Origin: Alteromonas aestuariivivens
GTDB taxonomy: Bacteria; Pseudomonadota; Gammaproteobacteria; Enterobacterales; Alteromonadaceae
Direction of reading: 5' to 3'
DNA: 64,000 nt
Assembly: GCF_003367475.1 (NCBI RefSeq)
Contig: NZ_QRHA01000001.1
Span: forward strand, 434,001 to 498,000
The notes beneath the pieces are model-generated. The model made no database searches, had not been told where the DNA came from, and was given only the letters and a program-made list of their open reading frames with translations. A program made the translations under genes and the position numbers. Of the stretch, positions 13,545-41,887 are shown piece after piece. The stretch's first letter is position 1; each line of letters begins with the position of its first letter.

Positions 13545-13907
13545 CAATGACTGACTGTACCTTGTTGAGCACAATTGGCTTTCAGAACGCCCGTAATGCG
13601 GCTTAGGACGCCGATCTAAAGCCAATCATATCGGCGCTGAGGCGGTGATAGAAGCCCTAATTGAATGTAAAGGGGGGCTTTGAATGGTTAGTTTGTAACG
13701 TTTTGTAATCCTGATCTGGTTCACCACAGGAGTGCAAAATCGGTCAAAGTTTAATTTGTAATGCTTATTAGAATATAAGTTATTAATATTTATGGATTCC
13801 TGGGTGTGGTGTTGGAATGGAGTTTTGTTGATTGTGTAATTAGTTGACCATTCGGTTAGTCTTGCTATGATTGAGTTTGTAATCTGTTATTAATGGGCGA
13901 AGTGTGT
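13545..13907. other. 363-bp divergent intergenic region, rhomboid / TetR
   Basis: AT-rich promoter region holding the RutR-like palindrome at 13844-13859. No further gene or strong hairpin is supported here. Confidence 0.5.
13844..13859. promoter_or_regulatory. RutR-like operator A (before the TetR gene)
   Basis: TTGACC-ATTC-GGTTAG. The left half matches the known E. coli RutR half-site and the right half differs at two positions. It lies about 50 bases before the regulator start, fitting autoregulation. It is one of eight sites with the same 6-4-6 layout in this window. Confidence 0.65.
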
Positions 13908-14564
13908 ATGGATACTGAAGGTACTTCTGTAAAGATGAACAAAAAAGAGCTGGTGCGCAAGAAAAACCAGACTCTTTTGCTCGACGCAGCCGAAGCCTTG
14001 TTCTCTACGCTGGGCTACGACAGAACCAGTGTGAGCCTGATTGCCGCGAAAGCCAAAGTGCCTAAAGCGAATGTTCTTTATTATTTCAAAAATAAAGAAA
14101 ATCTTTATTCCGCGGTGCTGGAACGGATCATGTCCGGGTGGGGCGTTGGCCTGGTGGATTTGAGCGCAGAGGATGAACCTGCACAGGCGCTGTATCAATA
14201 CATCAGGTTTAAAGTTCGGGTGTCCTGCGAATTTCCGGCTCAATCCCGCTTGTTTACCACAGAAATCATTCGCGGCGCGCCACATTTAGGCGCACATTTG
14301 CGAGAGCAGACCCGACCGTGGTTTCGCAACATCATTACGGTTATTCAGGCCTGGATTGATGCCGGTAAGATACGTCCGGTTGACCCATCACACCTGCTGT
14401 ACATGATCTGGTCATCAACTCAGTACTACGCAGATTATCAGACCGAGGTGTTCATTCTCGAGAACAAGCTGGAGTATGAAGACAGTGATATTGAATCCAT
14501 CACCCAATCCATCAGCAAGGTGATACTCACCGGGCTGGGGCTGGAAGTGCCCGAATTGAATTGA
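13908..14564 (+). CDS. RutR-like TetR-family transcriptional regulator
   Basis: 218 residues from ATG 13908, preceded by GGGCGAAG; an ATG five codons upstream lacks a ribosome-binding site. The N-terminal helix-turn-helix spans about residues 24-63 (LLDAAEALFSTLGYDRTSV, then NVLYYFKNKENLY). The C-terminal part carries the RutR-type pattern: SRLFTTEIIRGAPHLG, a WIDAGKIRPVDPSHLLYMIW block and STQYYADYQ. E. coli RutR senses uracil or thymine and controls pyrimidine and purine pathways, binding TTGACCANNTGGTCAA. The ligand here is unknown. Matching palindromes occur upstream of this gene and of the transport and catabolic genes up to xdhA, so it is the probable local regulator. Confidence 0.88.
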   Translation: MDTEGTSVKMNKKELVRKKNQTLLLDAAEALFSTLGYDRTSVSLIAAKAKVPKANVLYYFKNKENLYSAVLERIMSGWGVGLVDLSAEDEPAQALYQYIRFKVRVSCEFPAQSRLFTTEIIRGAPHLGAHLREQTRPWFRNIITVIQAWIDAGKIRPVDPSHLLYMIWSSTQYYADYQTEVFILENKLEYEDSDIESITQSISKVILTGLGLEVPELN

Positions 14565-14591
14565 TCAAAAGACGGGGATGGTATGTGGTTA

Positions 14592-14617
14592 GGGCTAAAC
14601 ATTCCGTTGGTTAGCCC
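14592..14617. terminator. hairpin between convergent TetR and oxygenase genes
   Basis: GGGCTAA (14592-14598) pairs with TTAGCCC (14611-14617). There is no T run, so this is a weak bidirectional terminator candidate supported mainly by its position. Confidence 0.4.
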
Positions 14618-14626
14618 CCCGAACCA

Positions 14627-15619
14627 CTACTTTGCAAAGTTTGCCTGAATACGCAGGTTGAGGTAATCCTCAGCGCTGATAGGCGGGTACTTGTTTTCCG
14701 GCCCCTGAATGATCATATCTTTATTGGCCTGGCAGAAAAACGCCAGGCTATATCGTGAGCCTTGGTATTCGCCTTCCCGGGGCATTCTGACTCGGTGTAG
14801 GGTACTTTTCAGCTTATCATCACTCCAGCGCATCAGCATGTCACCGATGTTACAGGTAATGATACCATCCTGAGCCTTGGCGCTGGTCCAGCTCAAGGCG
14901 TCTTGCGCATCCTTGCCAGCGCAGGCCTGCAGCCCGTCCTGCCCGGTTTTCTGAAATACCATGGTCAGGCAGTCAAAATCGGTGTGCGCACCTGCTCGCC
15001 ACAAGCCGGCATCCACGCCTTGTTGTTGGAGTGGCAGGTAGTGCAACAGCCGTAATGTGGACTGATACTCCGGGCTGGAACGATCGTGGGCACGGGTGAA
15101 GAAATCCCGTTCAAAACCCAGTTTGTCGGCGAAGCAGGACAAAATCTTCATGCCCAGTGCCCAGGCCTGCTGCTCAAATGCCAGGGTTATTGATTTGAAA
15201 TCCGCTAGTACCTGCTCCTGTGGCCACAGCGAGGCCATGTGGGGCAGGGTGATCTGGTAGGATTCCTTTTGGTCCTGAGTGCCGGTGGAAGGGCGCACCT
15301 GGGTCATAAATTCCCAGCCGACGTTCTGGCCCTTTGGCCGTGCATTGAGCGCTTTTGTTTCCGCTGGCAGGGCAAAATAGGATTCGGCAATGCCGAAGGT
15401 CTGCTTGATGGTATCCAGCGTGATGCCATGATTCTCAACCTGAAAAAAACCAACCTGAGTGGCGGCTTGCCACAGGGCTTCGGTGATGTGCTGACGCCGG
15501 TTTTCAAAATCACTGAAATCGATCAATGGTATTTCAGTGCAATCATTTTCAACGCCCATACCGCCAATCCGGGTTTCCAGATTGAGCTCATCCAGGCTGT
15601 AATGTTGCTTTGTTGTCAT
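14627..15619 (-). CDS. isopenicillin-N-synthase-like 2-oxoglutarate/Fe(II) oxygenase
   Basis: 330 residues from ATG 15619 (GGAG at good spacing; the 11-codon longer frame has none). The N-terminal domain has PLIDFSDFE and GFFQVENHGI typical of the family. The iron facial triad is H212, D214 (AHTDFDCLTM) and H275 (STLHRV), and R289-x-S291 (RYSL) binds the 2-oxoglutarate carboxylate. It therefore probably hydroxylates or demethylates a small molecule. The family includes fungal thymine 7-hydroxylase and bacterial proteins near guanine-deaminase-like genes. Placement beside the RutR-like gene suggests a nucleobase-like substrate, which is inference. No operator was found directly upstream. Confidence 0.88.
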   Translation of the reverse strand: MTTKQHYSLDELNLETRIGGMGVENDCTEIPLIDFSDFENRRQHITEALWQAATQVGFFQVENHGITLDTIKQTFGIAESYFALPAETKALNARPKGQNVGWEFMTQVRPSTGTQDQKESYQITLPHMASLWPQEQVLADFKSITLAFEQQAWALGMKILSCFADKLGFERDFFTRAHDRSSPEYQSTLRLLHYLPLQQQGVDAGLWRAGAHTDFDCLTMVFQKTGQDGLQACAGKDAQDALSWTSAKAQDGIITCNIGDMLMRWSDDKLKSTLHRVRMPREGEYQGSRYSLAFFCQANKDMIIQGPENKYPPISAEDYLNLRIQANFAK

Positions 15620-15699
15620 GGTTATCTCCAGTTGTGATAGCAATTGGAGCAATGCCAGATTATCTCAAACCTTGCCGCTTATACTCCTGTGAGTGAGGG

Positions 15700-16470
15700 T
15701 TACGCTTTTCCTTTGGTCAGGGTCCAGCCAAAGAAGTAGCTTTGGATCCAGTGCACCAGCTTGAACAACGCCAGACTGATAAGGGATAAAAATATCAGCG
15801 CCGCAAATGCCTGCGGAACTTTAAAGAACGAGGTAGAAAACTGGATGAAGTAACCCAGCCCCTGTTCGGCAGCAACAAATTCGGCTACTACCGCACCGAT
15901 GATCGAAAGGGTGATCGCTACCTTCATGCCACTGAATATGTGCGGCAGGGAATAGGGCAGGCGAATGGCCAGCACTTCTTTGTATCTGGGGGCGCGCAGT
16001 GAGCGTGACAGGTCAATCAGTTCCGGTGGTGTGGCCAGCATGCCGGTCATGGCCGAGACCACCAGCGGGAAAAAGGTGATCAGGCAGGTGATCGCCAGCC
16101 TTGGAGCTTCACCGGAGCCAAACATGGTGATCAGCAGCGGTGCAATCGCCACCACCGGCGTGGATTGCACAATAACCAGAAATGGATACAGGGTTTTAGA
16201 CAGATATTGGGAATTGACCATCAGCATGGCCAGCGGAATGCTTATCATTAGCGAAAGACCAAAACCGAGCAGGGCCACACGTAATGTTGCCCACAGATGC
16301 TCCAGCCAACGGGCGGGCTCCACTTCCATGAAGGACTCAAATATCAGTGACGGCGAAGGAAACAGGTAAGCCGGTACGTCGAAGCTGCGACATATCACTT
16401 CCCAGGCGGGCAGCAGCATGAGTAAAGTCAGTGCGGGCAGGTAACGGTTTAAAGCGGAAAAGTGTGTCAT
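15700..16470 (-). CDS. ABC transporter permease (TauC/SsuC/ThiX type), importer 1
   Basis: 256 residues with about six membrane helices and the EAA-type loop around IDLSRSLRAPRYKEVLAIRLPYSLPHIFSG (about 150-180). This is the permease class used with NMT1/THI5-like binding proteins to import taurine, sulfonates, thiamine precursors, pyrimidines and similar small molecules. It is the last gene of a compact minus-strand operon: binding protein, ATPase, permease. The start is 10 bases after the ATPase stop. Confidence 0.92.
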   Translation of the reverse strand: MTHFSALNRYLPALTLLMLLPAWEVICRSFDVPAYLFPSPSLIFESFMEVEPARWLEHLWATLRVALLGFGLSLMISIPLAMLMVNSQYLSKTLYPFLVIVQSTPVVAIAPLLITMFGSGEAPRLAITCLITFFPLVVSAMTGMLATPPELIDLSRSLRAPRYKEVLAIRLPYSLPHIFSGMKVAITLSIIGAVVAEFVAAEQGLGYFIQFSTSFFKVPQAFAALIFLSLISLALFKLVHWIQSYFFGWTLTKGKA

Positions 16471-16480
16471 TGAGCGTGCC

Positions 16481-17308
16481 TCACAGGTTGACCAGTTTTT
16501 TATTTATCGCCGTCACCGATGCCTTGCTATCTTCGCCTGCTTTATGCGGATGATAGATGTGCTGGCGTATTTCGCTCGCGTAGGTGGCAAAGGCCGGGTC
16601 GTGTATGGTTTCAGCACTGCGTGGCCTGGGTAGTTGAATATCAATCTGCGCTGACAAGCGGCCTGGCCTCGGGCTCATGATCAGTACCTTGTCGGCCAGT
16701 AATACTGCCTCGGTGATGGAGTGAGTGATAAACAGTACTGTTTTGGGGCTTTCATTCCAGATCCGTAGAAGTTCAAAACCCATTTCCTCCCGGGTGAGTG
16801 CGTCCAACGCAGAAAAGGGTTCGTCCATGATCAAAATTTCCGGGTCCATCAGCAGCGCCCGGGCGATACCTACCCGCTGTTGCATGCCACCAGAGAGTTC
16901 ATTCGGCATGCGTTTGGCAAAGTCTGCAAGGCCAACCATTTCAATCATCTTTTGTGCTTGGCTGCGGGTTTGGGAAGATACCCGGCCGGTTTTATGCTTA
17001 ACCGGAAACACCACGTTTTCGGTGACATTAAGCCAGGGCAGCAATGTGGGTTGCTGGAATACAATGCCTATTTCATCACGGGGTTCGGTCACCGCAGTGC
17101 CAAATATGTTCACCTGTCCTTCGGTGGGCATCATCAGGCCACTGAGCAGGCGCAGCAGTGTCGACTTACCGCAACCGGAAGGGCCGACCACGGCAACGAA
17201 CTGGTGCTTTTCAATGTCAAAGCTGACGTTCTGCAGGGCCAGAACCGATTTACCCTTATCGGTGGGGTAGCTGTGGCTGACGTTTTTCAGGCTTACATAG
17301 GGCTGCAT
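16481..17308 (-). CDS. ABC transporter ATP-binding protein (TauB/SsuB type), importer 1
   Basis: 275 residues. Walker A GPSGCGKST (about 42-50), Q-loop in IGIVFQQPTLLPW, signature LSGGMQQRVGIARAL, Walker B ILIMDEPFSALDALTR, and H-loop ITHSITEA. The FSALD-LTREE pattern is typical of the nitrate/taurine/sulfonate class. Its ATG overlaps the binding-protein stop by one base (TGATG), showing translational coupling. Confidence 0.94.
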   Translation of the reverse strand: MQPYVSLKNVSHSYPTDKGKSVLALQNVSFDIEKHQFVAVVGPSGCGKSTLLRLLSGLMMPTEGQVNIFGTAVTEPRDEIGIVFQQPTLLPWLNVTENVVFPVKHKTGRVSSQTRSQAQKMIEMVGLADFAKRMPNELSGGMQQRVGIARALLMDPEILIMDEPFSALDALTREEMGFELLRIWNESPKTVLFITHSITEAVLLADKVLIMSPRPGRLSAQIDIQLPRPRSAETIHDPAFATYASEIRQHIYHPHKAGEDSKASVTAINKKLVNL

Positions 17309-18303
17309 CAGTTAGCCTCCACAAAGTCACGGGAAATGGCGCTTTCGGGGTCAAGCTTTGCGGGGTCAATGTCCTGTGCCAAAGCAATCAGACGCCAGGT
17401 TTCAGCCAGTTTATTTTTTTCAAAATTTCCCAGACCATGGGCTTCGCTGGAAGGGTTATGTACCAGTTGCCGAATCGACATGATGGTATTGGCAGCCACA
17501 ACCGGGTCCACTTCCGGAACGACCTGGTGGACCATTTCGCCCGCTTCTTCGGGGTGTTGCCAAGTGTAAATCATGCCCTTCTTCAACGCCTGTAGGAACC
17601 GTTTGGCCACATCCGGGCGGTCTTTTAGAAACTGGTCATTGGCAATCACTGACGATGAATAGATGTTTAGCCCGGCGCCGTACCAGGGAAAAATATTGAC
17701 CTGCAGACCGATCTTCTCCGCTTCGGTTTGAATGGTGACGGTATCGGTTACCCAGGAGGTAATCGCATCAGTGCGGCCATGCAACAGCATGGGCGCGAGG
17801 CTGCCCGGATTGGCCTTTACGTGCCTGATGCCGCTTTCTTCCAGTCCGTTTTTTGTCACCACATAGGGGAAAAACAGATTGGAGGAAGTGAACGGAGAAG
17901 ACGCAACGGTCTTTTCGGCCAGGTCCTGAATGCTTTCTACGCCTCGGCCTTTTACAGTGAAAAATGCGTATGGCGCTTCTGAGAACACGTTCATTACACC
18001 GGTTACAGGGATGGTATTGCTGGCTTTTGCGGCAAGCAGTGCCACTATGTCGGAACGGCCCACGTCTGCATGGCCGGCGGCAATCTTGGTGATGGCGTCC
18101 GTTGAGCCTTTGCCCTGGGCTATCTTAACCTCAAGCCCCAACTCTTTGAAAAAGCCCTTCTGTTGAGCAACATAGACAGGGGCTTTGTCGCCTCCGGGTA
18201 ACCAGTCCAGTTGATAAACCACGGTTTCAAGGGCCTGGGAAGGCAAGGCTGACAGGCATAAGGCGGCTGAAAGCGCCACGGTGTTAAGTGTCTTTCGTAT
18301 CAT
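17308..18303 (-). CDS. NMT1/THI5-like periplasmic substrate-binding protein, importer 1
   Basis: 331 residues with a Sec signal peptide (AALCLSALPSQA before LETVV). The mature start VVYQLDWLPGGDKAPVYVAQQ and the GKGSTDAITKIAAGHADVG block are characteristic of NMT1/THI5-like binding proteins, known to bind hydroxymethylpyrimidine, formylaminopyrimidine and related heterocycles. AGGAG precedes ATG 18303. The mRNA leader can fold extensively, and a RutR-like site lies in the divergent promoter region. The ligand is not assignable; a pyrimidine- or purine-like molecule is inferred from context. Confidence 0.92.
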   Translation of the reverse strand: MIRKTLNTVALSAALCLSALPSQALETVVYQLDWLPGGDKAPVYVAQQKGFFKELGLEVKIAQGKGSTDAITKIAAGHADVGRSDIVALLAAKASNTIPVTGVMNVFSEAPYAFFTVKGRGVESIQDLAEKTVASSPFTSSNLFFPYVVTKNGLEESGIRHVKANPGSLAPMLLHGRTDAITSWVTDTVTIQTEAEKIGLQVNIFPWYGAGLNIYSSSVIANDQFLKDRPDVAKRFLQALKKGMIYTWQHPEEAGEMVHQVVPEVDPVVAANTIMSIRQLVHNPSSEAHGLGNFEKNKLAETWRLIALAQDIDPAKLDPESAISRDFVEAN

Positions 18304-18312: not shown

Positions 18313-18410
18313 CTACTGATGAACAAACGAATCACGGCTGGCCCCAAAAGCATCGTTTTAAAGCAACGCTTCACGGGCTGACAGCACGCAGACGTGCTCG
18401 TTTGTTATTG
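18313..18410 (-). promoter_or_regulatory. structured 5' leader of importer 1
   Basis: On the minus strand, AACAAACGA...CACG arms at 18393-18406 and 18322-18336 form a 9+4-bp long-range stem with a small bulge, enclosing about 56 bases. Inside, AGCACG and CGTGCT can instead pair locally, giving an alternative fold. It lies between the promoter region and the ribosome-binding site. I do not recognise a named riboswitch family. Confidence 0.4.
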
Positions 18411-18581
18411 AGCAATGACCATGATCACATTACATGAGGTAAAGGATCTTTCCGCTTCTACTCAAAGCTAAAGAATGTTCTGACGAGAAAGCAGTGTCTG
18501 TGCCAAAAAACAAAAAAATATGCTAAATCAGTTGGATAAGCAATTGCTGGACACATAAAGGAGCCCAAAATCGACTCAATC

Positions 18582-18617: not shown

Positions 18618-18633
18618 CAGACCATAGGGTTAG
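18618..18633. promoter_or_regulatory. RutR-like operator B
   Basis: CAGACC-ATAG-GGTTAG, same 6-4-6 layout. The left half has one mismatch to CTGACC, and the right half equals that of operator A. It lies between the divergent importer 1 and amidohydrolase genes, 90 bases from operator C. Confidence 0.45.
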
Positions 18634-18707: not shown

Positions 18708-18723
18708 CTGACCGAATGGTCCA
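18708..18723. promoter_or_regulatory. RutR-like operator C
   Basis: CTGACC-GAAT-GGTCCA. The core TGACC-GAAT-GGTC is shared with operator G before xdhA. It sits just upstream of the structured leader of the amidohydrolase gene. Confidence 0.62.
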
Positions 18724-18730
18724 CTTGTTG

Positions 18731-18826: not shown

Positions 18827-20185
18827 ATGAACTACTTAATTCAAAATGCCCGTGCCATTGCTTCGGGTACCCAACATGCAGCCGACATTCGTATTGGTGG
18901 TGGCGTGATCACCGAAATCGGCCATTCACTGGCGATCAGGCCTGATGAAACCCTGGTGGATGCCAGCAACTGTGTAATCTACCCGGGTTTTGTCAACACC
19001 CATCATCATTTGGCTCAGTCAGCACTGAAAGGGGTCAAAGCCGGTTTGAATCAGGGGTTAGGGGAATGGCTGGCCAGTGTGCCTTACACCTATTGGCCCC
19101 ATTTTACCCCTGAGTTGATGTACGATGCGGCGCTGATTGGGCTCAGTGAACAGTTGCGTTCCGGTGTGACCACCTGCGCCGACCACCACTACCTGTACCA
19201 CCAGGCATCGACCGCTGAACTGGAAGACGCATTGTGGCAGGCTGCGTCAGACCTGGGTATAAGATTGGTATTGTGCCGTGGTGGTGCAACCGTTCAGGGC
19301 AGCCACAAAGGCCTGCTCAACAACAACATTGTGCCTGAAACCCTTGATTTGGCGTTACATCGGATTGACGCCAGCCGTCGTCGCTATCACCAAAGCGGTG
19401 CCCGACCCATGCGCCAGTTAGTGGTTGCCCCTACTTCAATTGTGCATTCCTGTACACCGGAAGATTTGAAAGCTTTCGCAGCCTACGCCAGAGAGCATGG
19501 TCTGAAACTGCATTCTCACCTGCTGGAAGTCGAATTTGACAACATTCAGGCCCAACAGAAATACGCTATGGGCGCGGTGGAGTTCGCCCAGTCCTGCGAC
19601 TGGCTCGGCAAGGATGTTTGGTTTGCACATCTGGTGTGCACCAGTGCCGAAGACATTCGTTTACTGGGCGAGTCCGGCACGGGTATTGCCCATTGCCCAA
19701 CCTCCAACTGCCGGCTTGGTAGTGGTATTGCACCGGTGTTGGCAATGCAAAATGCTGGCATGCCGGTAACGATTGGCGTGGACGGCTCGGCTTCGGCTGA
19801 GTCTGGTTCCATGATCCAGGAACTGAATTTGAGCTGGCTGCTGCACCGGGCCCTGCATGGCGCGGACGCTACGCAGGTGGATACCTGCTTGCGCTGGGGC
19901 AGTGTGAATGGCGCGCGACTGCTGGGCTTAAATGACATCGGCGAAATTGCCGTTGGTCAGGCCGCCGATTTAGTGCTTTACGATCTCAGCCACTATCGCT
20001 ACCACGGTATGCACAGTGCGCTGGAAGCCCCCCTGCTGGCGGGCGAGCCGGTGCACATAAAAGCCAGTTTTGTGGATGGCCGGCAGGTGGTTGAAGACGG
20101 CGAAGTAATGGGGCTGGACAAACCGGCGTTGATGGCACGCATGCAAACCGGCATGCGAGAGCTGGTAGAACGGGCGCTGGGCTAA
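18827..20185 (+). CDS. guanine/8-oxoguanine-deaminase-like amidohydrolase
   Basis: 452 residues from ATG 18827, with AAGG six bases upstream. The longer open frame contains the leader structure instead. A metal-dependent hydrolase of the AtzA/TrzN/guanine deaminase branch: NTHHHLAQS (His 59-61), GVTTCADHHYLY, HSHLLE, the AHLVCTS His, and GVDGSASAESG with the metal-binding Asp. Relatives include P. aeruginosa 8-oxoguanine deaminase and isoxanthopterin deaminase. The exact substrate cannot be chosen from motifs. Deamination of an oxidised or ordinary guanine-type base would feed XdhAB and PuuD encoded 22-26 kb away under the same operator type. Confidence 0.88.
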   Translation: MNYLIQNARAIASGTQHAADIRIGGGVITEIGHSLAIRPDETLVDASNCVIYPGFVNTHHHLAQSALKGVKAGLNQGLGEWLASVPYTYWPHFTPELMYDAALIGLSEQLRSGVTTCADHHYLYHQASTAELEDALWQAASDLGIRLVLCRGGATVQGSHKGLLNNNIVPETLDLALHRIDASRRRYHQSGARPMRQLVVAPTSIVHSCTPEDLKAFAAYAREHGLKLHSHLLEVEFDNIQAQQKYAMGAVEFAQSCDWLGKDVWFAHLVCTSAEDIRLLGESGTGIAHCPTSNCRLGSGIAPVLAMQNAGMPVTIGVDGSASAESGSMIQELNLSWLLHRALHGADATQVDTCLRWGSVNGARLLGLNDIGEIAVGQAADLVLYDLSHYRYHGMHSALEAPLLAGEPVHIKASFVDGRQVVEDGEVMGLDKPALMARMQTGMRELVERALG

Positions 20186-20322: not shown

Positions 20323-21516
20323 TTAAGTAACCTGTGTGAGTGGGGGAGGGAGTGCAAGCAATTTGGTACGTTTACCCCAAAGGCTTGCGCACACTATCAG
20401 CACAAAAATGGCCAGGTATACGCTGCAACTGATAAACAGGCCAACGCTGCCAATCACTTCCATAACCAGTGACGCCAGAATGGGGCCGGAAATGGCCCCG
20501 ACGCAATAGCTGAACAAAACGGTACTGGCCACGTGGGACACCTTATCTTTGCTGAACAAATCGTTCGCGTAAGCCGAGCCGATGGGGCTCAGGGTCATGG
20601 AGACTGCACCGTAAAACAGTGCAGCCAGGCTGAAGCCGAAGCCCATCTGACTGATATTGAGTAAATTGAATGTAACCAACAGCAGGCTGCCAAGCAATGA
20701 TAACAGCGCCGCGCTGAGCATAATCATCTTACGGTTAACCTTGTCTGATAACCAGCCGATGGGCCATTGCAACAGCAGCCCTCCAATTAACACCAGTGCC
20801 ATAAACTGGCCGACTTCTGCGTAATTCAGCCCTAACCCTTGCGCATAAATAGGGCCAAGGCTCAGAAACGAACCGTTTAACAGCCCCGCCATCAAAGCAC
20901 AGGCCATGCCCAGCGGTGCGGTTTTAAATACCTCAATCAGTGCAAACCGCTTGAAGGTAAAGGTTTTGGGGGTATTGTCGGTCATCGCCAGCAGTGGAAA
21001 GCAAGCAAGAATGAACAGGGAACTGACCAGCATAAATAGCTGGTTACCGGTGGGGTCACCGATTGAAAACAGCAATTGTCCACAGCCAAGCGCCAGGTTG
21101 TTGACCACCATGTAGACCGACAGTACCCGCCCACGATTGCCATTGTTTGCGCTACTGTTGATCCAGCTTTCGGTAATGATGAGAATGGTGCCAACGCAAT
21201 ACCCCGCCACAAAGCGTGATGCAGCCCAGCTAGCGGGATCGACAAATGCCTGGAAGGACATCGTGCACAACACCAGCAGTAAGGCAAACAGCACAAAGCC
21301 GCGATGAAAGCCAAAATGGGGTAAAAACAGCCTGGCTGTGCAGGCGCTGAGCAGGATCCCAGCAAAGTAGGCCGCCATGATAATGCCGATGGCTACCATG
21401 GCGAAGCCTTCAATGCTTGCCCTGACACTCAGAAGTGTCGAGAACAGGCCGTTGCCCAGATACAAAAAACCGTAGCAGGGCAGAATGACGCGTAACTGAT
21501 GCAGCGTCTGACGCAT
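20323..21516 (-). CDS. major facilitator superfamily transporter
   Basis: 397 residues with about twelve hydrophobic segments in two halves. The segment LSDKVNRKMIMLSAALL is the typical loop 8/9-type MFS motif, and the first half contains RFVAGYCVGTILIITESWIN, the pattern of YcaD-like/MFS_1 carriers. Direction and substrate are unknown. It follows the binding protein of importer 2 by 20 bases on the same strand, so it is probably the last gene of that operon and may export a product or import a related compound. Confidence 0.85.
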   Translation of the reverse strand: MRQTLHQLRVILPCYGFLYLGNGLFSTLLSVRASIEGFAMVAIGIIMAAYFAGILLSACTARLFLPHFGFHRGFVLFALLLVLCTMSFQAFVDPASWAASRFVAGYCVGTILIITESWINSSANNGNRGRVLSVYMVVNNLALGCGQLLFSIGDPTGNQLFMLVSSLFILACFPLLAMTDNTPKTFTFKRFALIEVFKTAPLGMACALMAGLLNGSFLSLGPIYAQGLGLNYAEVGQFMALVLIGGLLLQWPIGWLSDKVNRKMIMLSAALLSLLGSLLLVTFNLLNISQMGFGFSLAALFYGAVSMTLSPIGSAYANDLFSKDKVSHVASTVLFSYCVGAISGPILASLVMEVIGSVGLFISCSVYLAIFVLIVCASLWGKRTKLLALPPPLTQVT

Positions 21517-34715: not shown

Positions 34716-35102
34716 ATGACCCCCTTAAATCCCGCTTCTTTACCCGCACCTTTTGGACGTTACTCCCACGGCGTGGAAGTGCCCGCCAAAGGGCGCCTGG
34801 TGAAAACTTCCGGTCAGCTGGCTCTGGCCAGTGATCTTTCCATTCCCGAGTCTGCTTTTGAGCAGGCCCAGCTGATTTTTCAGTATCTCGATGCCATCCT
34901 GCAGGAGGGTAATATGTCACGCCAGGACGTGATACATCTGGCCGCCTACGTGACTGACCGGGCCTACATGAAAGAGTACATGCAAGCCCGCGACCTTTAC
35001 TTTGGTGAGCTGACTCCGCCAGCTTCCACCCTCATCATCGTATCCGGTTTTACCCGCGAAGAATTCAAAGTGGAAATTGAACTGCTGGCCATGGCGGACT
35101 AG
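34716..35102 (+). CDS. RidA/YjgF-family enamine/imine deaminase
   Basis: 128 residues from ATG 34716, with AAGAGA upstream; an upstream TTG is unlikely. Rid proteins hydrolyse reactive enamines and imines, and RutC of the pyrimidine pathway is a relative. Seen: FGRYSHGVEV, TSGQLALA, and the C-terminal PASTLIIVSGF and KVEIELLAMAD, where the family's usual substrate-binding Arg (RxxV/A) is not obvious; the RidA subgroup is uncertain. Together with the adjacent oxidase/deaminase operon it fits removal of an imine intermediate. Its last codons share an 18-bp palindrome with the convergent amidotransferase gene. Confidence 0.82.
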   Translation: MTPLNPASLPAPFGRYSHGVEVPAKGRLVKTSGQLALASDLSIPESAFEQAQLIFQYLDAILQEGNMSRQDVIHLAAYVTDRAYMKEYMQARDLYFGELTPPASTLIIVSGFTREEFKVEIELLAMAD

Positions 35103-35109
35103 TCCGCCA
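35092..35109. repeat. 18-bp perfect palindrome spanning two convergent stop codons
   Basis: TGGCGGACTAGTCCGCCA reads identically on both strands and encodes Ala-Asp-stop for both the RidA gene (plus) and the amidotransferase gene (minus). The genes overlap by four bases at CTAG. It could form a short bidirectional hairpin. Confidence 0.85.
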
Positions 35110-35833
35110 GAGCCTGCGCTACCGCCTCACCGTACAGCCCGTCGAGAAACCCCATAAACCACCGGTGTACGGCGAAATCATGCTGTTGCATCAACCGGTC
35201 CTGGGTGGCTTTGTCCTGAACCCCTGAGCGCCCGTATACATGCGCTTTACTGAACTGCCAGCGCCGAAAGGCGGGTATGGTTACCTCCGGGTGAAACTGA
35301 AAGCCATAGGTACTGGGCCCGTACCGGAATGCCTGCTGGCCAAACAGCGCACTTTTTGCCAGCAATTGCGCACCTTGTGGCAACTGAAATTCATGAAAGT
35401 GCGCCTGTGGCACCACCAGTGAAGGGGGAAACAGGTTGCAAGCGGCATTAGCCGGTGTCAGCTCGTAATAACCAAACTCAAACGGCTCTCCGGATTTGGG
35501 GCCAACCTCGGCGCCCAGTACCCGAGCAATTGACTGGGCACCCTGACAAATGCCCAGCATTGGCACCTGTTTATCCAGGCACTGGCGTATCCAGCGGTTT
35601 TCCTGGTGCAGAAACGGGTGCTTGTGTTCTTCAAATACGTTGTACTGACCGCCGTACAATGCGGTTGCAATTACGCTGTCATCCACCTCGCCAAGTGACT
35701 CACCAAAGCAGGGGCGCATGATCTGTGGCTCAATGCCTTTGTAACGAAAGTAGGTTATAAGCCGGTCATCCTCGGGTTCTTCGCCGTGACGGATCAGGAC
35801 CACCCGCGGGCTCAGCTTTTTGAGCTTTTCCAA
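35099..35833 (-). CDS. class I glutamine-amidotransferase-like protein
   Basis: 244 residues; GGGAG precedes ATG 35833, which overlaps the TPR gene stop by 22 bases. The triad region is present: nucleophile Cys in GICQGAQ (about residue 95) and the His-x-Glu of FQFHPEV. This matches stand-alone GMP-synthase-like amidotransferases, which hydrolyse glutamine or gamma-glutamyl amides. No synthetase partner is adjacent. It is the last gene of the TonB operon by overlap, an odd place for such an enzyme. A gamma-glutamyl hydrolase role in nitrogen release is possible but unproven. Confidence 0.82.
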   Translation of the reverse strand: MEKLKKLSPRVVLIRHGEEPEDDRLITYFRYKGIEPQIMRPCFGESLGEVDDSVIATALYGGQYNVFEEHKHPFLHQENRWIRQCLDKQVPMLGICQGAQSIARVLGAEVGPKSGEPFEFGYYELTPANAACNLFPPSLVVPQAHFHEFQLPQGAQLLAKSALFGQQAFRYGPSTYGFQFHPEVTIPAFRRWQFSKAHVYGRSGVQDKATQDRLMQQHDFAVHRWFMGFLDGLYGEAVAQALAD

Positions 35834-37050
35834 TTCTCATACTCCCGTCTCTGGCTGGCGAAGTTGATCCAGGCATTGGCCTGACTTTTTACCGAACTGA
35901 ACGCCCGTGCTTTTTGTAATGTGGCTTTGCCCGTTTCCAACTGACCGGATTGTATCTGTGCTATACCCAACAGAAGCCAGGCTTTGTCAGCTTTGTCTAA
36001 ACCTTTATCTAGGGCTTGTTGCAGCGACTGTTGGGCGTCCTGCCAGCGTTCCAGTTCAATCAGCAGTCGGGCCTGTTTGAGCAGCGGTGCGCCGTCATCA
36101 GCCAGTTGCGCCAGTTCGCCATAGGCAGTAACAGCCCGGGGCTTTTCTCTGGCCTGCTCCCAGGCGCCGGCGAGCATACCAAGGTGTTTTTCATTGCGGC
36201 TGATCAGTTCCTTTTGCAGGGCGGCAGCCAGCAGTCTGGCAGCCGGTTCCGGTAAACCCTGTGAAACGGTCAGCTGTGCCAGCGATATAATGCTGGATTC
36301 GCGGTCCAGAAAGTTCTGCTTCCAGGCCAGCTGCAATACCGCTAACGCTTCGGTTTCCTGTTCCAGCAACATGTGTACACTGGCCAGTTGTTCCCAGTAA
36401 GTTTTGCTGGCAGGCCAGCGGGACAACATCTGTTTGAGGGTCTTCAGTGCATCCGGGTAATGCTTTTGTTCAAACTGAGCCGCCAACAGTAACTGGTACC
36501 AGGATTCCTTGACTTCCTCAGCTTGGGTAATGGCCTGTAGGGCGTAGCCCTCCGCTTTGGCGTACTGCTTGAGCTGGGCGGTGATGTTGGCCAAAAACAT
36601 ATGGTCATTGGGCTTGGGTTCGGGCAAAGCCTGATACCAGATTTCCGCTTCGGTGAGGGCCTCGGCAAACTCACCTGAGCCGGCGTACAGCTGAGCCATC
36701 ATGTAGCGGATGTTCAACGACGCTTTTTCCGGCAGCTTGTTCAGGGCCAGGCTGTGGCGAAACTTGTCTATCGCTTGCGGGTAGCGGTTGCTGGCCATCT
36801 CGGCATATCCCCAGGTCTGCAGCACGATGGCGTTAGACAGGCTGTCTTCTTCCTGGTCCTGAGCCAGCGCTTTAAGTTCCTGAACGGCATCACTCAATTG
36901 GTTGTTACTCATCAATTCCTGAATCTCAGTCAACTTTTTATAAGTCGACGGAGAAATGGATTCCGCCTTGAGAGGGGAACTGGTGCCAAGTAACAGCAGA
37001 GCTAACGCTGCCAGCGGGGCACGGACCTTTGCTGCTAATTTAGGTCTCAT
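35812..37050 (-). CDS. TPR-repeat exported protein of the TonB operon
   Basis: 412 residues; AAGGAG precedes ATG 37050. A signal peptide (hydrophobic LAALALLLLGTSSPLKA) is followed by serial tetratricopeptide-like repeats over nearly the whole length (for example ALLLIELERWQDAQQSLQQAL-type units). In Vibrio-like TtpC-type TonB systems a TPR protein closes the operon and helps assemble or energise the complex. It lies directly downstream of tonB. Confidence 0.82.
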   Translation of the reverse strand: MRPKLAAKVRAPLAALALLLLGTSSPLKAESISPSTYKKLTEIQELMSNNQLSDAVQELKALAQDQEEDSLSNAIVLQTWGYAEMASNRYPQAIDKFRHSLALNKLPEKASLNIRYMMAQLYAGSGEFAEALTEAEIWYQALPEPKPNDHMFLANITAQLKQYAKAEGYALQAITQAEEVKESWYQLLLAAQFEQKHYPDALKTLKQMLSRWPASKTYWEQLASVHMLLEQETEALAVLQLAWKQNFLDRESSIISLAQLTVSQGLPEPAARLLAAALQKELISRNEKHLGMLAGAWEQAREKPRAVTAYGELAQLADDGAPLLKQARLLIELERWQDAQQSLQQALDKGLDKADKAWLLLGIAQIQSGQLETGKATLQKARAFSSVKSQANAWINFASQRREYENWKSSKS

Positions 37051-37061
37051 GATGTGTCTCC

Positions 37062-37709
37062 TTAACTGTCTGCCAGGGTGAACTCAATGGTCTGAGTTGC
37101 TGTTTGTGCTTCCGGTTGCCCGTCGACGATTTTGGGGCGAAATTTCCAGCGCATCATGGCAGTGATCGCCGCTTTGTCGAACAGACGGCGGGGATTGGAC
37201 TCAATCACTTTGGCGTTGGCCACCGTGCCGTCAGGGCGAATTGAGACGGACATTTTTACATAGCCTTCAATTTTGGCCTGTTTGGCGTTGCGTGGGTAAA
37301 CCGGCGCAACCTGCACCACCGGGATCACATCGGAATCGAACCCAGCCACGCCGCCGGTCAGTGAACCCGGGGCACCCAGAAACGGGCCGTCACCACCGCT
37401 CAGCGGCATGTCCAGGCTGGGCAAATTCATCGCCAATGGCTGCACCGACTGGCTGGCGGCATTGTCGCTGGTGGTTACATCCGGGGTTTGTGGAGGTTGT
37501 TCAGGCGGCGGGGGCTCGTCAGGAAGCTGGCGGTCCTTTTGTTTGGCACTCTGCTCACTGACTGTGACCCGCACAAAATTAAGATAGGCGGTATCGCTTT
37601 TCTTATTGAACAACTCATCGTCCGGTTTGATCATCAGTTCCATTAAAAAGAACAGGACTAAGCCGATGCCTGTTGCAACGATAAAGGAGGTGACAAATCG
37701 ATTGAGCAT
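37062..37709 (-). CDS. tonB: TonB family energy transducer
   Basis: 215 residues from ATG 37709 with AGGAGG upstream; the frame extends 11 codons but without a ribosome-binding site. One N-terminal membrane anchor (about 8-28), a proline-rich periplasmic linker (LPDEPPPPEQPPQTP), and a C-terminal TonB domain (VVQVAPVYPRNAKQAKIEGYV, RRLFDKAAITAMMRWKF). It couples the proton-motive complex to the outer-membrane receptor. It is the fifth gene in the order DUF3450, ExbB-like, ExbB, ExbD, TonB, TPR. Confidence 0.93.
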   Translation of the reverse strand: MLNRFVTSFIVATGIGLVLFFLMELMIKPDDELFNKKSDTAYLNFVRVTVSEQSAKQKDRQLPDEPPPPEQPPQTPDVTTSDNAASQSVQPLAMNLPSLDMPLSGGDGPFLGAPGSLTGGVAGFDSDVIPVVQVAPVYPRNAKQAKIEGYVKMSVSIRPDGTVANAKVIESNPRRLFDKAAITAMMRWKFRPKIVDGQPEAQTATQTIEFTLADS

Positions 37710-37719
37710 GGCGCCCTCC

Positions 37720-38127
37720 TTAGTCATTGCCTTTGGCGGCAACAGAAATATTCGCGGCTCCCGCCAGTCGGGCCTGGTCCATCACTTTGATCAGTATGTT
37801 GGTGTTGGAGCCTTCATCAGCAACAATCACCACCGCACCGCCTGGGTTCTCTGCCAGCGCTTTTTCAACGTTGGCCCGCACTGCCCGGGGGTCTATGCGG
37901 CGCTTGTCTATCCAGATTTCGTTGTTGCTGCTGATCCCAATCTGTACGCCACCGGCTTCGGTGGCAACGGCGGTTTCAGCATTCGGGCGGGTCACGTCTA
38001 CGCCGGTTTCCCGTACAAAAGATGATGTTACGATGAAAAAGATCAACATGATGAAGACCACATCCAGCATGGGCGTCATGTCTACCTGGCTTTCCTCTTC
38101 AATTTCTGCGTATTTCTCGTAATTCAT
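37720..38127 (-). CDS. exbD: ExbD/TolR proton-channel subunit
   Basis: 135 residues; AGGA precedes ATG 38127. One membrane helix near the N-terminus in the family pattern VDMTPMLDVVFIMLIFFIVTS, with the channel Asp in MLDVVF, followed by the periplasmic ExbD domain. It acts with the adjacent ExbB and TonB. Confidence 0.94.
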   Translation of the reverse strand: MNYEKYAEIEEESQVDMTPMLDVVFIMLIFFIVTSSFVRETGVDVTRPNAETAVATEAGGVQIGISSNNEIWIDKRRIDPRAVRANVEKALAENPGGAVVIVADEGSNTNILIKVMDQARLAGAANISVAAKGND

Positions 38128-38162
38128 AATTTAAATCCTGTAAATAATCCGCACTGCGATGC

Positions 38163-38684
38163 TTAGCCGTGCTGGGGGGCCAATGTGTCGTGCACGTCCC
38201 GCAGTGCTTTTTTGTAACGTCTGTCGAGAATCGACATCACCGGGATCGCGGTCAGTGCCGCAACCATCCCTGCCATGGTCGGAATAGTGGCGGCGCTTAC
38301 GCCATCCGCCATGGAACGGGGGTTGTTGGAGCCGGTGACAGCCAGTACATCGAACACCTGGATCATGCCGGTAACCGTCCCGAGCAGGCCCAGCATTGGC
38401 AGCAATGCCACCAGGCTGGGGATGATTTTCATGTTGGTACTGAGCTGGCAGTCCAGTTCGGAAATCATTTGCTTGCGCACGTTGTTGCCGTACCAGGAGC
38501 TTTTGTCCCGGCGCTGTTCCCAGCGGGCGGCCGTGGATTTAAAATCCTGCGGAAAATCCCGGTAGATGTAGCTGAAGCGTTCCAGTATCAGCCACCACAA
38601 CAGGATGGTAGCGCCCAGAATCAGCCATAACACGCTGCCTCCGGTGTCCAGAAAGTCACGCATCAGCATCATTACCTCATGCAT
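38163..38684 (-). CDS. exbB: ExbB/TolQ-type proton-channel subunit
   Basis: 173 residues; GGGAG precedes ATG 38684, overlapping the upstream ExbB-like gene by 8 bases. MotA/TolQ/ExbB domain with LPMLGLLGTVTGMIQVF and GVSAATIPTMAGMVAALTAIPVM. The short form matches the TtpC-associated ExbB2 of Vibrio-like systems. Confidence 0.92.
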   Translation of the reverse strand: MHEVMMLMRDFLDTGGSVLWLILGATILLWWLILERFSYIYRDFPQDFKSTAARWEQRRDKSSWYGNNVRKQMISELDCQLSTNMKIIPSLVALLPMLGLLGTVTGMIQVFDVLAVTGSNNPRSMADGVSAATIPTMAGMVAALTAIPVMSILDRRYKKALRDVHDTLAPQHG

Positions 38685-40068
38685 GTTGCTTCTCCCTGGG
38701 GGCAGCCATTTTTTCAGCCTGAGAAGAGATCATTCCGGCTGCCTGTTCGGCGAGAATTTTGGTCAGGCCCTGGGCTTTGCTGCTCAGGAAGCTGTGTGAA
38801 AGCAGCAGCGGAATGGCCGCCACCAGACCCAGAACGGTAGTAACCAGTGCCTGGGAGATGCCTCCGGCCATCAGCTTCGGGTCACCGGTACCAAACAGGG
38901 TAATGGCCTGGAAGGTACCAATCATACCGGTTACCGTACCCAGCAGGCCCATCAGCGGAGCAATAGCGGCTAGCACTTTGAGTACTGGCAGGCCTTTTTT
39001 GAATTCGTTGATGTCTTTGAGGATCACTTCGTCGAGCTTTTTCGACAGCACGTCCACTTCCAAATGGCGGCTTTCGTAATACACACCCAGCGCGCGGCCC
39101 AGCGGGTTGTCGTTGTTGAACTGGTCCAGGTCAGCCATCTGCTTTTTCATACCGCTGCCTAAACGCTTAAGCGCATAGAAACGGCTCAGAACCAGCAGCA
39201 TGCCAACAAGTAGCAGGCCGAGGATCACATAGCCGACTTCTTTACCCTGTTCGATTCGCTCCATCAGGGTAGGAGATTGCACCAGCAGCCCCAGCAATAC
39301 ACCGCGGGACGGATCAATTGAAAAGGCGACACGTTCATTCTGGCTGGCGCTGAGACCGGCGGCGGTATCCCGGTGGTAGCCTTCCGGCTGACGGGCAAAC
39401 TCAACCAGTTCATTGTTTTCCGGCAGGTAGTTTAAAAACAGATCATCAGTGACAACGTTAAATGTACCAACCCGGGTCACCTCCGACTGGTAGTGTTCGC
39501 CATTGGGTTTGACCACGTCGGCAGTAAAGCGGGAGACTTTGCCACTGGCGGCAATTTCATCGAGCATCAGGGTCCAGAGCTGGGTCATTTCTTCAATACG
39601 TGGCACTTCGGTACGGCTGGCCAGGGTCTGGATGGCCTGTTGCCGCTCCGGCATTTCCAGTGACACCAGTGAGTCGTAAAGGCCGGATTGCACGTCACCG
39701 GCCATTTGCCGGAACACCCCAAACAGTTCGCCTAAGTCACCCACGCGGTTTTTCAGCAGAGTGTTGAGTTCGGTCAGTTCCTGCTCATTGAGGTCGAACT
39801 GGTTTTTGAGTTGTTCCCGCTTTGTGACCAGATTGGCCAGCTGGGTATCAGCGGCTTTTTGCAGTTCAACCTGCTGTTGATAGGAGCTGATAAATTCGGC
39901 TTCGCGCTGTTGATTGTGCGCACTCTCAGCTTTTAAATCGGATTTGACGGTGTTCAGCAAATCGGCCAGTGGATCTTCCTGAGCTGCAACCGGTGCCGCA
40001 ATCAGTACACCGGCCAAAGACAGGTGAGCGAGGGATTTAAGACGAACAAATGGGTTTAACATCTTCAT
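38677..40068 (-). CDS. TtpC-type ExbB/MotA-domain protein with periplasmic coiled coil
   Basis: 463 residues; AAGG precedes ATG 40068. A signal peptide (GVLIAAPVAAQ) is followed by a coiled-coil periplasmic part (about 40-130) and a globular segment. A membrane helix lies near 275-295, and a C-terminal MotA/TolQ/ExbB domain includes IAPLMGLLGTVTGMIGTF and VLGLVAAIPLLLSHSFL. This is the arrangement of TtpC, the fourth component of certain TonB complexes. It lies between the DUF3450 and exbB genes. Confidence 0.9.
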   Translation of the reverse strand: MKMLNPFVRLKSLAHLSLAGVLIAAPVAAQEDPLADLLNTVKSDLKAESAHNQQREAEFISSYQQQVELQKAADTQLANLVTKREQLKNQFDLNEQELTELNTLLKNRVGDLGELFGVFRQMAGDVQSGLYDSLVSLEMPERQQAIQTLASRTEVPRIEEMTQLWTLMLDEIAASGKVSRFTADVVKPNGEHYQSEVTRVGTFNVVTDDLFLNYLPENNELVEFARQPEGYHRDTAAGLSASQNERVAFSIDPSRGVLLGLLVQSPTLMERIEQGKEVGYVILGLLLVGMLLVLSRFYALKRLGSGMKKQMADLDQFNNDNPLGRALGVYYESRHLEVDVLSKKLDEVILKDINEFKKGLPVLKVLAAIAPLMGLLGTVTGMIGTFQAITLFGTGDPKLMAGGISQALVTTVLGLVAAIPLLLSHSFLSSKAQGLTKILAEQAAGMISSQAEKMAAPREKQHA

Positions 40069-40092
40069 TTTGATACCTTGGACTCGGTTGAA

Positions 40093-40842
40093 TTACTTGG
40101 GGCTGTTTATTGCTAGGGTAAGCAACTCGGGTGGAGCCTGTTTGCGGGCAACCCGCAGGCCATCACGAATGGCCCGGCGATAATCACCGGGTAAAGTCTC
40201 CCAATTGCGGGTTTGGGGGTTCCAGCGCCCACTTTCGTTGCCGTCCAGAGTTTGGTAATACAGCCCCAGGCGACCAATTCTCAGAAAATCCACAGAGCGG
40301 GGTTGGTTGGCGGTTACCAGCTCGTCATTGTAAGCTTCGATGGTTTTTCCGTACTCCATTTCGATGTTGTAGGCTTCCATAATGCGACGGTATTTTTCAC
40401 CCACGGTAACGTCAGCACGGTCAATCAGTTGGGTGAGATTTTCAACCCGACTGGTGCGTTCATGGAGTAAAAAGGGCGCATCAGCGTCAATCAGTTTTTC
40501 CAGGGTATCCACCATCTTAACCATCAGTGGCAGCACACCCAGTTCAATCTGATCAATCTGCTCGGTCTGCGCTTTGATTGAAGTCATTTCCTGTTGCTGC
40601 GAGGCAACCAGTTTTTCCAGCTGGGCGTTGTAAATTTCCAGGCTCTCGGCCCGCTGGATGGCTGAGCGGTATTGTTGCAGGGCTGCGGCCTGCTTATCGG
40701 ACAAGTTGTCAATTTTCACCTGGCTGGCAGCGGCCTGACGATTAATTTGCTGTTGCACGCTGGCACTCTGCTCAACCGTTTGGGCGGTCGCGAGTGGGAT
40801 ACAGGCTATACAGCTAATTGCTAGCAATGATTTCTTCAACAT
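40093..40842 (-). CDS. DUF3450-family exported coiled-coil protein of the TonB system
   Basis: 249 residues from ATG 40842 (GGA upstream); ATG 40854 is an alternative. A signal peptide (LLAISCIACIPLATA) is followed by a long coiled coil (about 25-110) and a conserved C-terminal region with GRLGLYYQTLDGNESGRWN. DUF3450 genes begin many TtpC-type TonB operons, where the protein is thought to help the outer-membrane partner. It is the first gene here, about 90 bases after operator E. Confidence 0.85.
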   Translation of the reverse strand: MLKKSLLAISCIACIPLATAQTVEQSASVQQQINRQAAASQVKIDNLSDKQAAALQQYRSAIQRAESLEIYNAQLEKLVASQQQEMTSIKAQTEQIDQIELGVLPLMVKMVDTLEKLIDADAPFLLHERTSRVENLTQLIDRADVTVGEKYRRIMEAYNIEMEYGKTIEAYNDELVTANQPRSVDFLRIGRLGLYYQTLDGNESGRWNPQTRNWETLPGDYRRAIRDGLRVARKQAPPELLTLAINSPK

Positions 40843-41165
40843 ATCGATGTCCATGTACGGTTAACTTGACTTCAAACAGAGCGAACGAAAACGTTCCATA
40901 TAACCGACGATGCAGAATCGGTGCCAATGCTGTCCGATTGGTCAGTGTATATGGTTTGGTGTTGGTGTGTGGCGGGTTTTACGATTCATAAAGTCTGTTA
41001 TTCATGGCTTTATAAGGAGTCTTTTCATGTTTGGTTATCCTGACCGATCGATTTAGATTCTGCACCAATGTGATCCTTCGGTTGCTCCAAACTGTGGCAA
41101 AAGAAGTTCGCCGGTGCAGAATCATTGTTCAAAAATAGTAGCGGCGCGACAAATCAGGTTTCGCT
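40843..41165. other. 323-bp region between the DUF2165 gene and the TonB operon
   Basis: The DUF2165 gene ends on the far side, so this is the promoter region of the TonB operon. It holds operator E, a CTGACC half-site at 41040 without a good partner, and TGCACCA (41061-41067) resembling an NtrC half-site. No gene is supported. Confidence 0.45.
40930..40945. promoter_or_regulatory. RutR-like operator E (before the TonB operon)
   Basis: CTGTCC-GATT-GGTCAG, 6-4-6 layout, one base off CTGACC on the left and a good right half. It lies about 90 bases upstream of the DUF3450 start, placing the TonB complex in the proposed regulon. Confidence 0.6.
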
Positions 41166-41657
41166 TTAATCACTGTCTTTCTGGTGCAGAAACAGCAGGG
41201 TGAGAAACAGCACAACAATAAACCGAAATGCGGCCTGCTGACCGTTCCAGGTGCTCGATTGCCACATCAGAAACCATTCCGCACCTACGGTCATAAACCC
41301 GCTGAACCACAGCAGGATCCCCACCGTCAATCCCCAGCTCGCCAGCCCCTTTGCCAGCACGAACTGTTGGGCCGGGGCCGCTCTGTAGCGCCACAATTGC
41401 AATGCACCGATGCAACATAAAGTACCGGTAAGGGCTTCAGCAGTGATGATCAAAGCGTAGAAAATATGATGGATAAACGGGTTTTCCACCGCCCTTGAGG
41501 TCAGCTGGTTTCCTTCGAAGGTGGTATCCATGGTCAGCACATGTTGAACAAAGGCAAAATTGGAACCGTAGTCCACCATGTTGTTGTACGCCACGAGCAA
41601 TGAAAACACGCCAGCGCTTGCAACAAGGCTGGTTTTTATCAGTCGGAAAGAGTTCAT
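41166..41657 (-). CDS. DUF2165-family small membrane protein
   Basis: 163 residues from ATG 41657 with AGGAAC just upstream; the longer frame lacks support. Four hydrophobic segments (SLVASAGVFSLLVAYN, IFYALIITAEALTGTL, WGLTVGILLWFSGFMTVG, AAFRFIVVLFLTLLFL) and the YNNMVDYGSNFAFVQHVL motif match DUF2165. The family's role is unknown. It is divergent from xdhA, and operator F lies 71 bases upstream, so it is probably co-regulated with the purine genes. Confidence 0.84.
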   Translation of the reverse strand: MNSFRLIKTSLVASAGVFSLLVAYNNMVDYGSNFAFVQHVLTMDTTFEGNQLTSRAVENPFIHHIFYALIITAEALTGTLCCIGALQLWRYRAAPAQQFVLAKGLASWGLTVGILLWFSGFMTVGAEWFLMWQSSTWNGQQAAFRFIVVLFLTLLFLHQKDSD

Positions 41658-41727
41658 AAAGTTCCTAGGGGTTATTGTGTACATCAACACGCTTAAACCC
41701 TGTTTCTTTGCAAGAATCATGTCTTAA

Positions 41728-41743
41728 ATAACCAATCGGTCAA
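41728..41743. promoter_or_regulatory. RutR-like operator F (before the DUF2165 gene)
   Basis: ATAACC-AATC-GGTCAA. The right half equals the known RutR half-site exactly; the left half is degenerate. It lies 71 bases before the DUF2165 start. Confidence 0.52.
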
Positions 41744-41871
41744 TTAAATTTGATACATATAAATTGATTCCTTCCTCAATGAAGGTTAAGAAGTGGTTTA
41801 GGTAACTGCAGTTATTTTTAGGATTTTTGTACTTTGCTTGATGGATGGTATGGATGTTTTAAGTCATTATA

Positions 41872-41887
41872 TTGACCGAATGGTCAG
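41872..41887. promoter_or_regulatory. RutR-like operator G (before xdhA)
   Basis: TTGACC-GAAT-GGTCAG, the best palindrome in the window: one base differs from TTGACC-N4-GGTCAA. It lies about 115 bases before the proposed xdhA start. Confidence 0.72.

Follow-up and report, generated by a model that had tools for sequence, protein, structure and literature searches.

Candidate operators of a RutR-family regulator upstream of TonB-dependent uptake and xanthine dehydrogenase genes in Alteromonas aestuariivivens

The RutR protein of Escherichia coli (TIGR03613 / NF011584) combines a TetR_N domain with PF08362 and recognises a palindromic operator of approximately 16 bp. In its pocket, W77, Y97, W167 and Q171 are reported to hold uracil, with Q179 reaching in from the other monomer (PMC10891134, accessible part). 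RutR regulons have been predicted in 68 proteobacterial genomes from 13 taxa, with taxon-specific changes of motif and the label of pyrimidine catabolism (Leyn et al. 2016, PMC5343134, accessible part). Here we describe a 64,000-nucleotide stretch of the Alteromonas aestuariivivens genome (contig NZ_QRHA01000001.1, positions 434,001 to 498,000; hereafter the window) that encodes a TetR protein of this family at 13893-14564. Like RutR, this protein has both domains, retains W77, Y97, W167 and Q171, and at sequence level has an operator type of about 16 bp, palindromic and including its own promoter. It differs from the E. coli protein in that Q179 is replaced by Glu (Glu185) and in its predicted targets, namely an outer-membrane receptor, a TonB energiser, importers and xdhAB, whereas no receptor or TonB complex is named for RutR in the accessible part of the regulon study (PMC5343134). 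The palindromes upstream of these genes are quite probably operators of the protein encoded at 13893-14564.

Two further systems are close to parts of this locus. The Vibrio TonB2 operon, ttpB2-ttpC2-exbB-exbD-tonB2-ttpD2, matches a gene series of the window in having DUF3450 first, followed by TtpC-like, ExbB, ExbD and TonB proteins and a tetratricopeptide repeat (TPR) protein last. However, the accessible part of its description gives it a putative Fur box and induction by iron limitation (PMC6957404), whereas the series here has a RutR-type box. According to the same source, the tonB3 operon of Vibrio vulnificus starts with a receptor gene, so operons that join a receptor to a TonB complex are known. 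The xanthine riboswitch, or NMT1 RNA (RF03054), is described in the accessible part of its source (PMC7373994) as binding xanthine and uric acid and turning genes off, next to NMT1/tauA importers, DIOX_N dioxygenases and PRK12393 amidohydrolases. Leaders in the window share its core nucleotides and gene partners, but their scores are below threshold, and a RutR-type box shares the upstream region with one of them, the leader of the binding protein SBP1. Receptor and TonB-complex operons, wide RutR regulon predictions and xanthine riboswitches are thus already known. In the open-access literature no report was found that places a TonB-dependent receptor or a TonB complex under a RutR-type protein; RegPrecise tables could hold such predictions.

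RutR-type boxes and their conservation

The first-pass annotation of this DNA had listed eight 16-bp palindromes, and all eight are present where it placed them and are intergenic. Because these sites should not be judged by a matrix made from themselves, a palindromic motif was learned de novo without any window sequence. The training set was 23 upstream regions taken from eight further genomes in the family (G138, G038, G050, G105, G133, G046, G094 and G098), each with a close relative of the TetR protein (53-64% identical). The resulting motif, YTGACCRATYGGTCAR, has a total score of 453.8 against 218-241 in eight shuffles, with three of the 23 regions (G138 SBP1, the G050 first operon and G094 xdhA) lacking a convincing box. 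Six of the listed sites occupy ranks 1-6 among 63,985 window positions scored with this relatives-only matrix, as given below. The window has six matches of at least 14 bits, compared with a mean of 0.35 and a maximum of 2 in 100 dinucleotide shuffles. Six of the eight listed sites therefore stand above chance, and the scores of the other two, 18618 and 26949, do not rise above noise.

13893-14564, + strand: RutR-family TetR regulator, clade A (TetR_N + PF08362, by domain search)
13844-13859, + strand: predicted operator TTGACCATTCGGTTAG of the tetR gene; rank 3; its TTGACC is a possible -35 element of TTGACC-N16-TATGAT
18618-18633: weak listed site CAGACCATAGGGTTAG; rank 17; weak alignment in Catenovulum
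18708-18723: predicted operator CTGACCGAATGGTCCA between the SBP1 operon and deaminase 1; rank 6; boxes also in G138, G050 and Catenovulum
26751-26766: predicted operator CTAACCAATTGGACAG of the receptor; rank 5; aligned box in G050
26949-26964: weak, positionally conserved box TTGACCATGCAGACAG upstream of the creatininase-like gene; rank 18
40930-40945: predicted operator CTGTCCGATTGGTCAG of the TonB-complex operon; rank 2; G050 counterpart TTATCCAATCGGTCAA
41040-41055: possible extra site CTGACCGATCGATTTA; rank 7; not seen in G050
41728-41743: predicted operator ATAACCAATCGGTCAA over a possible DUF2165 -35 element (TTGACC-N16-CATGAT); rank 4
41872-41887: predicted operator TTGACCGAATGGTCAG upstream of xdhA; rank 1

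The boxes recur in relatives that carry the same genes. Of the 146 other genomes sampled from the family, two, G050 (68% identity) and G038 (59%), hold close relatives of the DUF3450 protein; the next best reaches 47%. Gene order in G050, which belongs to another genus, is the same as in the window, running from the genes for an MFS transporter, SBP2, permease, ATPase, receptor and creatininase-like protein, then from deaminase 2 through the cytosine deaminase-like gene to RidA, TPR, TonB, ExbD, ExbB, TtpC-like, DUF3450 and DUF2165, and no part of this syntenic stretch was used for motif training. A 19.7-bit box lies upstream of the G050 DUF3450 gene, 89 bp from the start codon as against 84 bp in the window, and boxes of 12.4 bits each at its receptor and creatininase genes align with 26751 and 26949. 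At the position aligned with 26949, G050 has CTGACCATTTAGACAG, its distance to the partner box is 199 bp (198 bp in the window), and the conserved island extends into a shared TTGACG; 26949 is retained despite its low score because its position is conserved in this way. The other weak site, 18618 (7.9 bits), aligns weakly with an 8.9-bit box in Catenovulum, and G138 holds a 6.2-bit box at a similar spacing. The unlisted candidate 41040 scores 11.8 bits, and no counterpart of at least 9 bits was found in G050.

Beyond G050, a single box of 17.5 bits precedes the receptor-DUF3450-TtpC-ExbB-ExbD-TonB-TPR series of G038, and one of 18.6 bits precedes the receptor of G105. Other DUF3450 loci have a box of at least 14 bits in only one of 29 cases (L159); the two other DUF3450 copies of the A. 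aestuariivivens genome, which are among these 29, have none of at least 7 bits directly upstream. The suggestion that a receptor and a TonB complex both lie under a RutR-like box thus holds as a matter of sequence, with boxes upstream of both operons in G050.

Gene content and xanthine riboswitch-like leaders

The genes and leaders considered here are as follows.

14627-15652, - strand: 2OG-Fe(II) dioxygenase (DIOX_N), with a xanthine riboswitch-like element upstream
15642-15691, - strand: xanthine riboswitch-like element, dioxygenase leader (RF03054, 25.8 bits, E 0.11, gathering score 36)
15700-18303, - strand: ABC importer 1, comprising permease (BPD_transp_1), ATPase (ABC_tran) and NMT1-type binding protein SBP1
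18405-18468, - strand: xanthine riboswitch-like element, SBP1 leader (RF03054, 28.0 bits, E 0.026, gathering score 36)
18827-20185, + strand: amidohydrolase/deaminase (deaminase 1), family PRK12393 (616 bits, cut-off 543)
20323-24101, - strand: MFS transporter, NMT1-type SBP2, permease 2 and ATPase 2, downstream of the receptor on the same strand
24196-26652, - strand: TonB-dependent receptor (Plug domain; TonB-siderophore subfamily match below cut-off)
27078-27914, + strand: creatininase-family amidohydrolase, below named equivalog cut-offs
35099-40854, - strand: TonB2-type complex, comprising DUF3450 (TtpB-like), TtpC-like, ExbB, ExbD, TonB and TPR (TtpD-like), then a glutamine amidotransferase
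41166-41720, - strand: DUF2165 membrane protein
41937-45828, + strand: xdhA and xdhB, xanthine dehydrogenase, both over curated cut-offs

The block also holds a cytosine deaminase-like gene, whose match is below the cut-off, and purine-degradation genes are present in the relative G094. The DUF2165 gene stays beside the TonB operon in G050. Names of importer 1, the first MFS gene and some genes of a second locus outside the window (see below) were assigned from position or size and then confirmed by testing. Directly after xdhAB, at 46150-47343, lies a gene for a urate oxidase-like membrane protein (PF06181), and beside the block, at 47359-52515, are glutathionylspermidine synthase-like, DUF1190, DUF350, DUF2491, ion channel, PspA and DUF2170 genes.

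The riboswitch-like elements were found with a lowered Rfam threshold together with a loose core-sequence scan of all loci examined. The two in the window are the only RF03054 matches at E <= 1 in 34.5 kb, and both are in sense orientation; at the gathering threshold, Rfam gave no match in the window and only a tRNA in seven loci from the relatives and the same genome. The core is also present in three leaders each of Catenovulum (L053) and G138 and in one of G050, and the loose scan matched one unrelated-looking place in G105 (L142). In the alignment, the base pair closing the core is formed in all nine leaders, as T-A in SBP1, G-C in dioxygenase and A-T in deaminase leaders; few independent events lie behind these changes, because the type of pair goes with the kind of leader. 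The gene types that the accessible part of PMC7373994 places beside this riboswitch class are present in the block. The leaders point towards oxidised purines. A hairpin upstream of deaminase 1 was also considered, and is not claimed as its folding is within the shuffle range (z -1.40).

The regulator, its paralogues and competing explanations

The C-terminal pattern that the first-pass annotation had recognised as RutR-type is borne out by a TetR_C_3 (PF08362) match of 142.5 bits, against a cut-off of 25, and the best solved relative of the protein is E. coli RutR, with 35.4% identity over 195 residues. It is, however, below both RutR equivalog cut-offs (TIGR03613, 176.9 of 368; NF011584, 147.6 of 230) and no RutA match was found in its own genome, so that linkage to rutA-G is absent there; on these two grounds the local protein is classed as a RutR-family paralogue, not RutR. 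Among the nine genomes, RutA is over the cut-off in one, G046, where it adjoins the third RutR-like gene of that genome, and there is a weak match in G138. In an alignment of 98 proteins the Q179 position is Glu in 11 clade A rows (ten genomes, one represented twice) and Gln in the other 87. Clade A forms one group with Shimodaira-Hasegawa-like approximate likelihood ratio (SH-aLRT) support of 98 in a quick tree covering 51 of these 98, made without bootstrap and with long branches flagged.

Several observations weigh against reading the boxes as operators of this protein. The regions used for training were picked after a first scan with a window-derived matrix, which introduces mild circularity, and under the relatives-only matrix 18618 and 26949 rank 17th and 18th and are background-like. 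No box of at least 9 bits is present at the receptor homologues of G046 and G098 or at the DUF2165 gene of G050, and at E 1e-60 a receptor homologue is missing from G138, G133 and G094; conservation of the sites in gene-carrying relatives is accordingly seen at the G050 receptor and TonB operons and in G038 and G105, and fails at the receptors of G046 and G098. A -35-like hexamer coincides with two boxes, 13844 and 41728, an overlap that would fit repression, but such promoter-like matches are no commoner than in shuffles (1 versus 0.7; 1 versus 1.7). Both RF03054 matches are below the Rfam gathering score. Finally, no box was found upstream of the catabolic operon 34409->27953 or of gene 46150, and therefore the boxes reach only part of catabolism. 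The earlier proposal that one TetR protein coordinates uptake, energisation and catabolism is accordingly retained, at sequence level, for the tetR gene, the importer/deaminase pair, the receptor, the TonB complex and xdhAB, and only in part for catabolism.

Contrary to what had been proposed, boxes of this type are not confined to the accessory block, since they also lie upstream of other genes, some of which neighbour a second RutR-like paralogue. By the relatives-only matrix, boxes outside the window precede a phosphoribosyltransferase gene (C23:245124; 18.3 bits), a second TonB-dependent receptor (C23:302160; 17.3 bits), a third receptor (C32; 17.0 bits) and a second xdhA (17.9 bits). The second RutR-like protein (G000:C23:311001-311663; L134:11001-11663) is 44% identical to the local one, and its gene is preceded by a 12.1-bit box. 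Its neighbours are xdhABC and genes for OHCU decarboxylase, HIUase, an amidohydrolase and a polysaccharide-deacetylase-family protein, as well as two adenosine deaminase-family genes, a purine nucleoside permease and a xanthine/uracil permease-family gene. This locus is of purine-nucleoside type and, besides the second xdhABC set, carries boxes and a receptor of its own.

Cross-binding is possible because this second paralogue has nearly the same box, and it could be that it, or both paralogues together, control the window boxes while the local protein mainly controls itself. The genome encodes both proteins; their boxes are alike and their DNA-reading helices resemble each other closely. We consider this explanation unlikely, since a clade A protein is the only RutR-like match (E <= 1e-40) in five of the eight relatives (G138, G038, G050, G094 and G098) and boxes are present in all five. 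Moreover, each of the four further genomes sampled from the genus encodes a RutR-like protein (37-41% identity) but lacks a clade A regulator, and their best DUF3450 copies are 42-45% identical. The lack of a clade A protein in these four genomes is also why the block looks accessory.

Further members of the family were surveyed in 66 of 80 named loci (L053-L119 without L054, a contig of G138), with a box cut-off of 14 bits and gene functions taken from one locus. Genes with an upstream box number 42 of 48 for cytidine deaminase, 14 of 18 for uridine kinase, 14 of 56 for an Oar-like TonB-dependent receptor and 19 of 55 for tetR (2 of 10 among those nearer the second paralogue), whereas each of six other locus genes gave none in 31-61 and shuffles predict 0.03-0.22 per class; the genomes are related, so these counts are not independent. 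A receptor thus lies near a RutR-type box in all three paralogue types, though in the Colwellia type in only a quarter of loci at the 14-bit cut-off. The Colwellia-type loci (L053-L119, e.g., L062:173-13211) contain genes for an endonuclease/phosphatase-family protein, alkaline phosphatase, an Oar-like receptor, cytidine deaminase and pyrimidine nucleoside phosphorylase, and are possibly nucleic-acid scavenging loci with conserved boxes. The window itself has an alkaline phosphatase homologue (PF00245) at 6540-7970, about 6 kb from the tetR gene, which is 49-59% identical to its counterparts next to the RutR-like genes of the Colwellia-type loci L083, L062 and L089.

That Colwellia-type relatives are located in pyrimidine-nucleoside loci also bears on the idea of a conventional RutR that senses uracil, in a block that handles pyrimidines or a mixture of bases; the four retained uracil-contacting residues and the cytosine deaminase-like gene likewise speak for it. 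We judge this unlikely, and marginally less probable than control by the second paralogue, given a regulator that is under both equivalog cut-offs in a genome with no RutA match, a Q179 position that is Glu in clade A only, and the presence of xdhAB, the purine-degradation genes of G094 and the xanthine riboswitch cores.

Genome-wide counts bear on whether the sites reflect chance. A strict form of the palindrome occurs at 16 places in 3.85 Mb compared with 35 for a reversed-pattern control, and so is not over-represented, which again counts against the boxes. Five of the 16 are, however, within the 28-kb block that makes up 0.73% of the genome (binomial P ~8e-8, an optimistic value because the window sites were already known when the pattern was drawn up), and the signal is therefore one of location, not number. 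Placement of the other 11 covers ten, with C35:129516 left out: five are intragenic (C1:674711, C23:180568, C23:240697, C32:67959 and C34:160882), C12:76807 and C33:197347 are intergenic, C23:245124 and C23:302160 are the phosphoribosyltransferase and receptor sites given above, and C30:42647 falls in a gap between convergent genes. A looser pattern allowing one mismatch, with 96 forward and 148 control matches, was dropped in favour of the strict one, and a sequence-profile search of the genome, in which 150 of 1,584 candidates were scored and two places appeared at E 10, was uninformative. The highest among the boxes that were scored outside the window (22.0 bits; C30:42646, L135:10047) is a further adverse point, as it lies between convergent genes with no evident promoter; its assignment as a receptor promoter was withdrawn for that reason. 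These counts, the 22-bit box and the two low-ranking sites would all suit chance palindromes with only the autoregulatory and xdhA boxes real, which is very improbable given that an independent matrix puts six sites as its top six, that no match of at least 12 bits falls in window coding DNA and that footprints of the boxes exist in G050.

A proposed regulatory scheme and its meaning

The boxes, their conservation, the gene content, family membership and riboswitch cores were computed here, and the following scheme is proposed for the clade A regulator acting on the boxes. Without inducer, a dimer would sit on 16-bp boxes (consensus YTGACCRWWYGGTCAR) near its target promoters and repress them. 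Besides its own gene, this set would comprise the SBP1 importer with deaminase 1, the operon of receptor and importer 2 together with the creatininase-like gene divergent from it, the TonB2-type operon, and DUF2165 with xdhAB. The receptor would carry a purine. A base of the purine-breakdown route, most likely an oxidised purine, would enter the RutR-type pocket and free the protein from DNA. Accumulating xanthine or urate may then brake the SBP1 operon (importer 1) and the dioxygenase via their leaders, damping translation.

A broader proposal, which we put forward tentatively and without quite favouring it, is that the RutR family in marine Alteromonadales has split into paralogues that each run a route from outer membrane to catabolism with a receptor near a box: clade A for oxidised purines, a type associated with purine-nucleoside genes, and a Colwellia type associated with nuclease and pyrimidine-nucleoside genes. 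Clade A would have changed its ligand (Q179 to Glu), would command a dedicated TonB motor in three genomes and would be layered with xanthine riboswitches, such that substrate induces and product brakes.

Passage of nucleobases across the outer membrane is usually credited to porins. If the proposal is correct, a family known from pyrimidine control would also govern nucleobase import across the outer membrane in marine bacteria, with a receptor, an importer and a TonB motor named whose substrate is directly testable. It would likewise set a TetR repressor and a riboswitch together on one group of genes, and the RutR paralogues would provide a natural series for studying shifts in ligand specificity.

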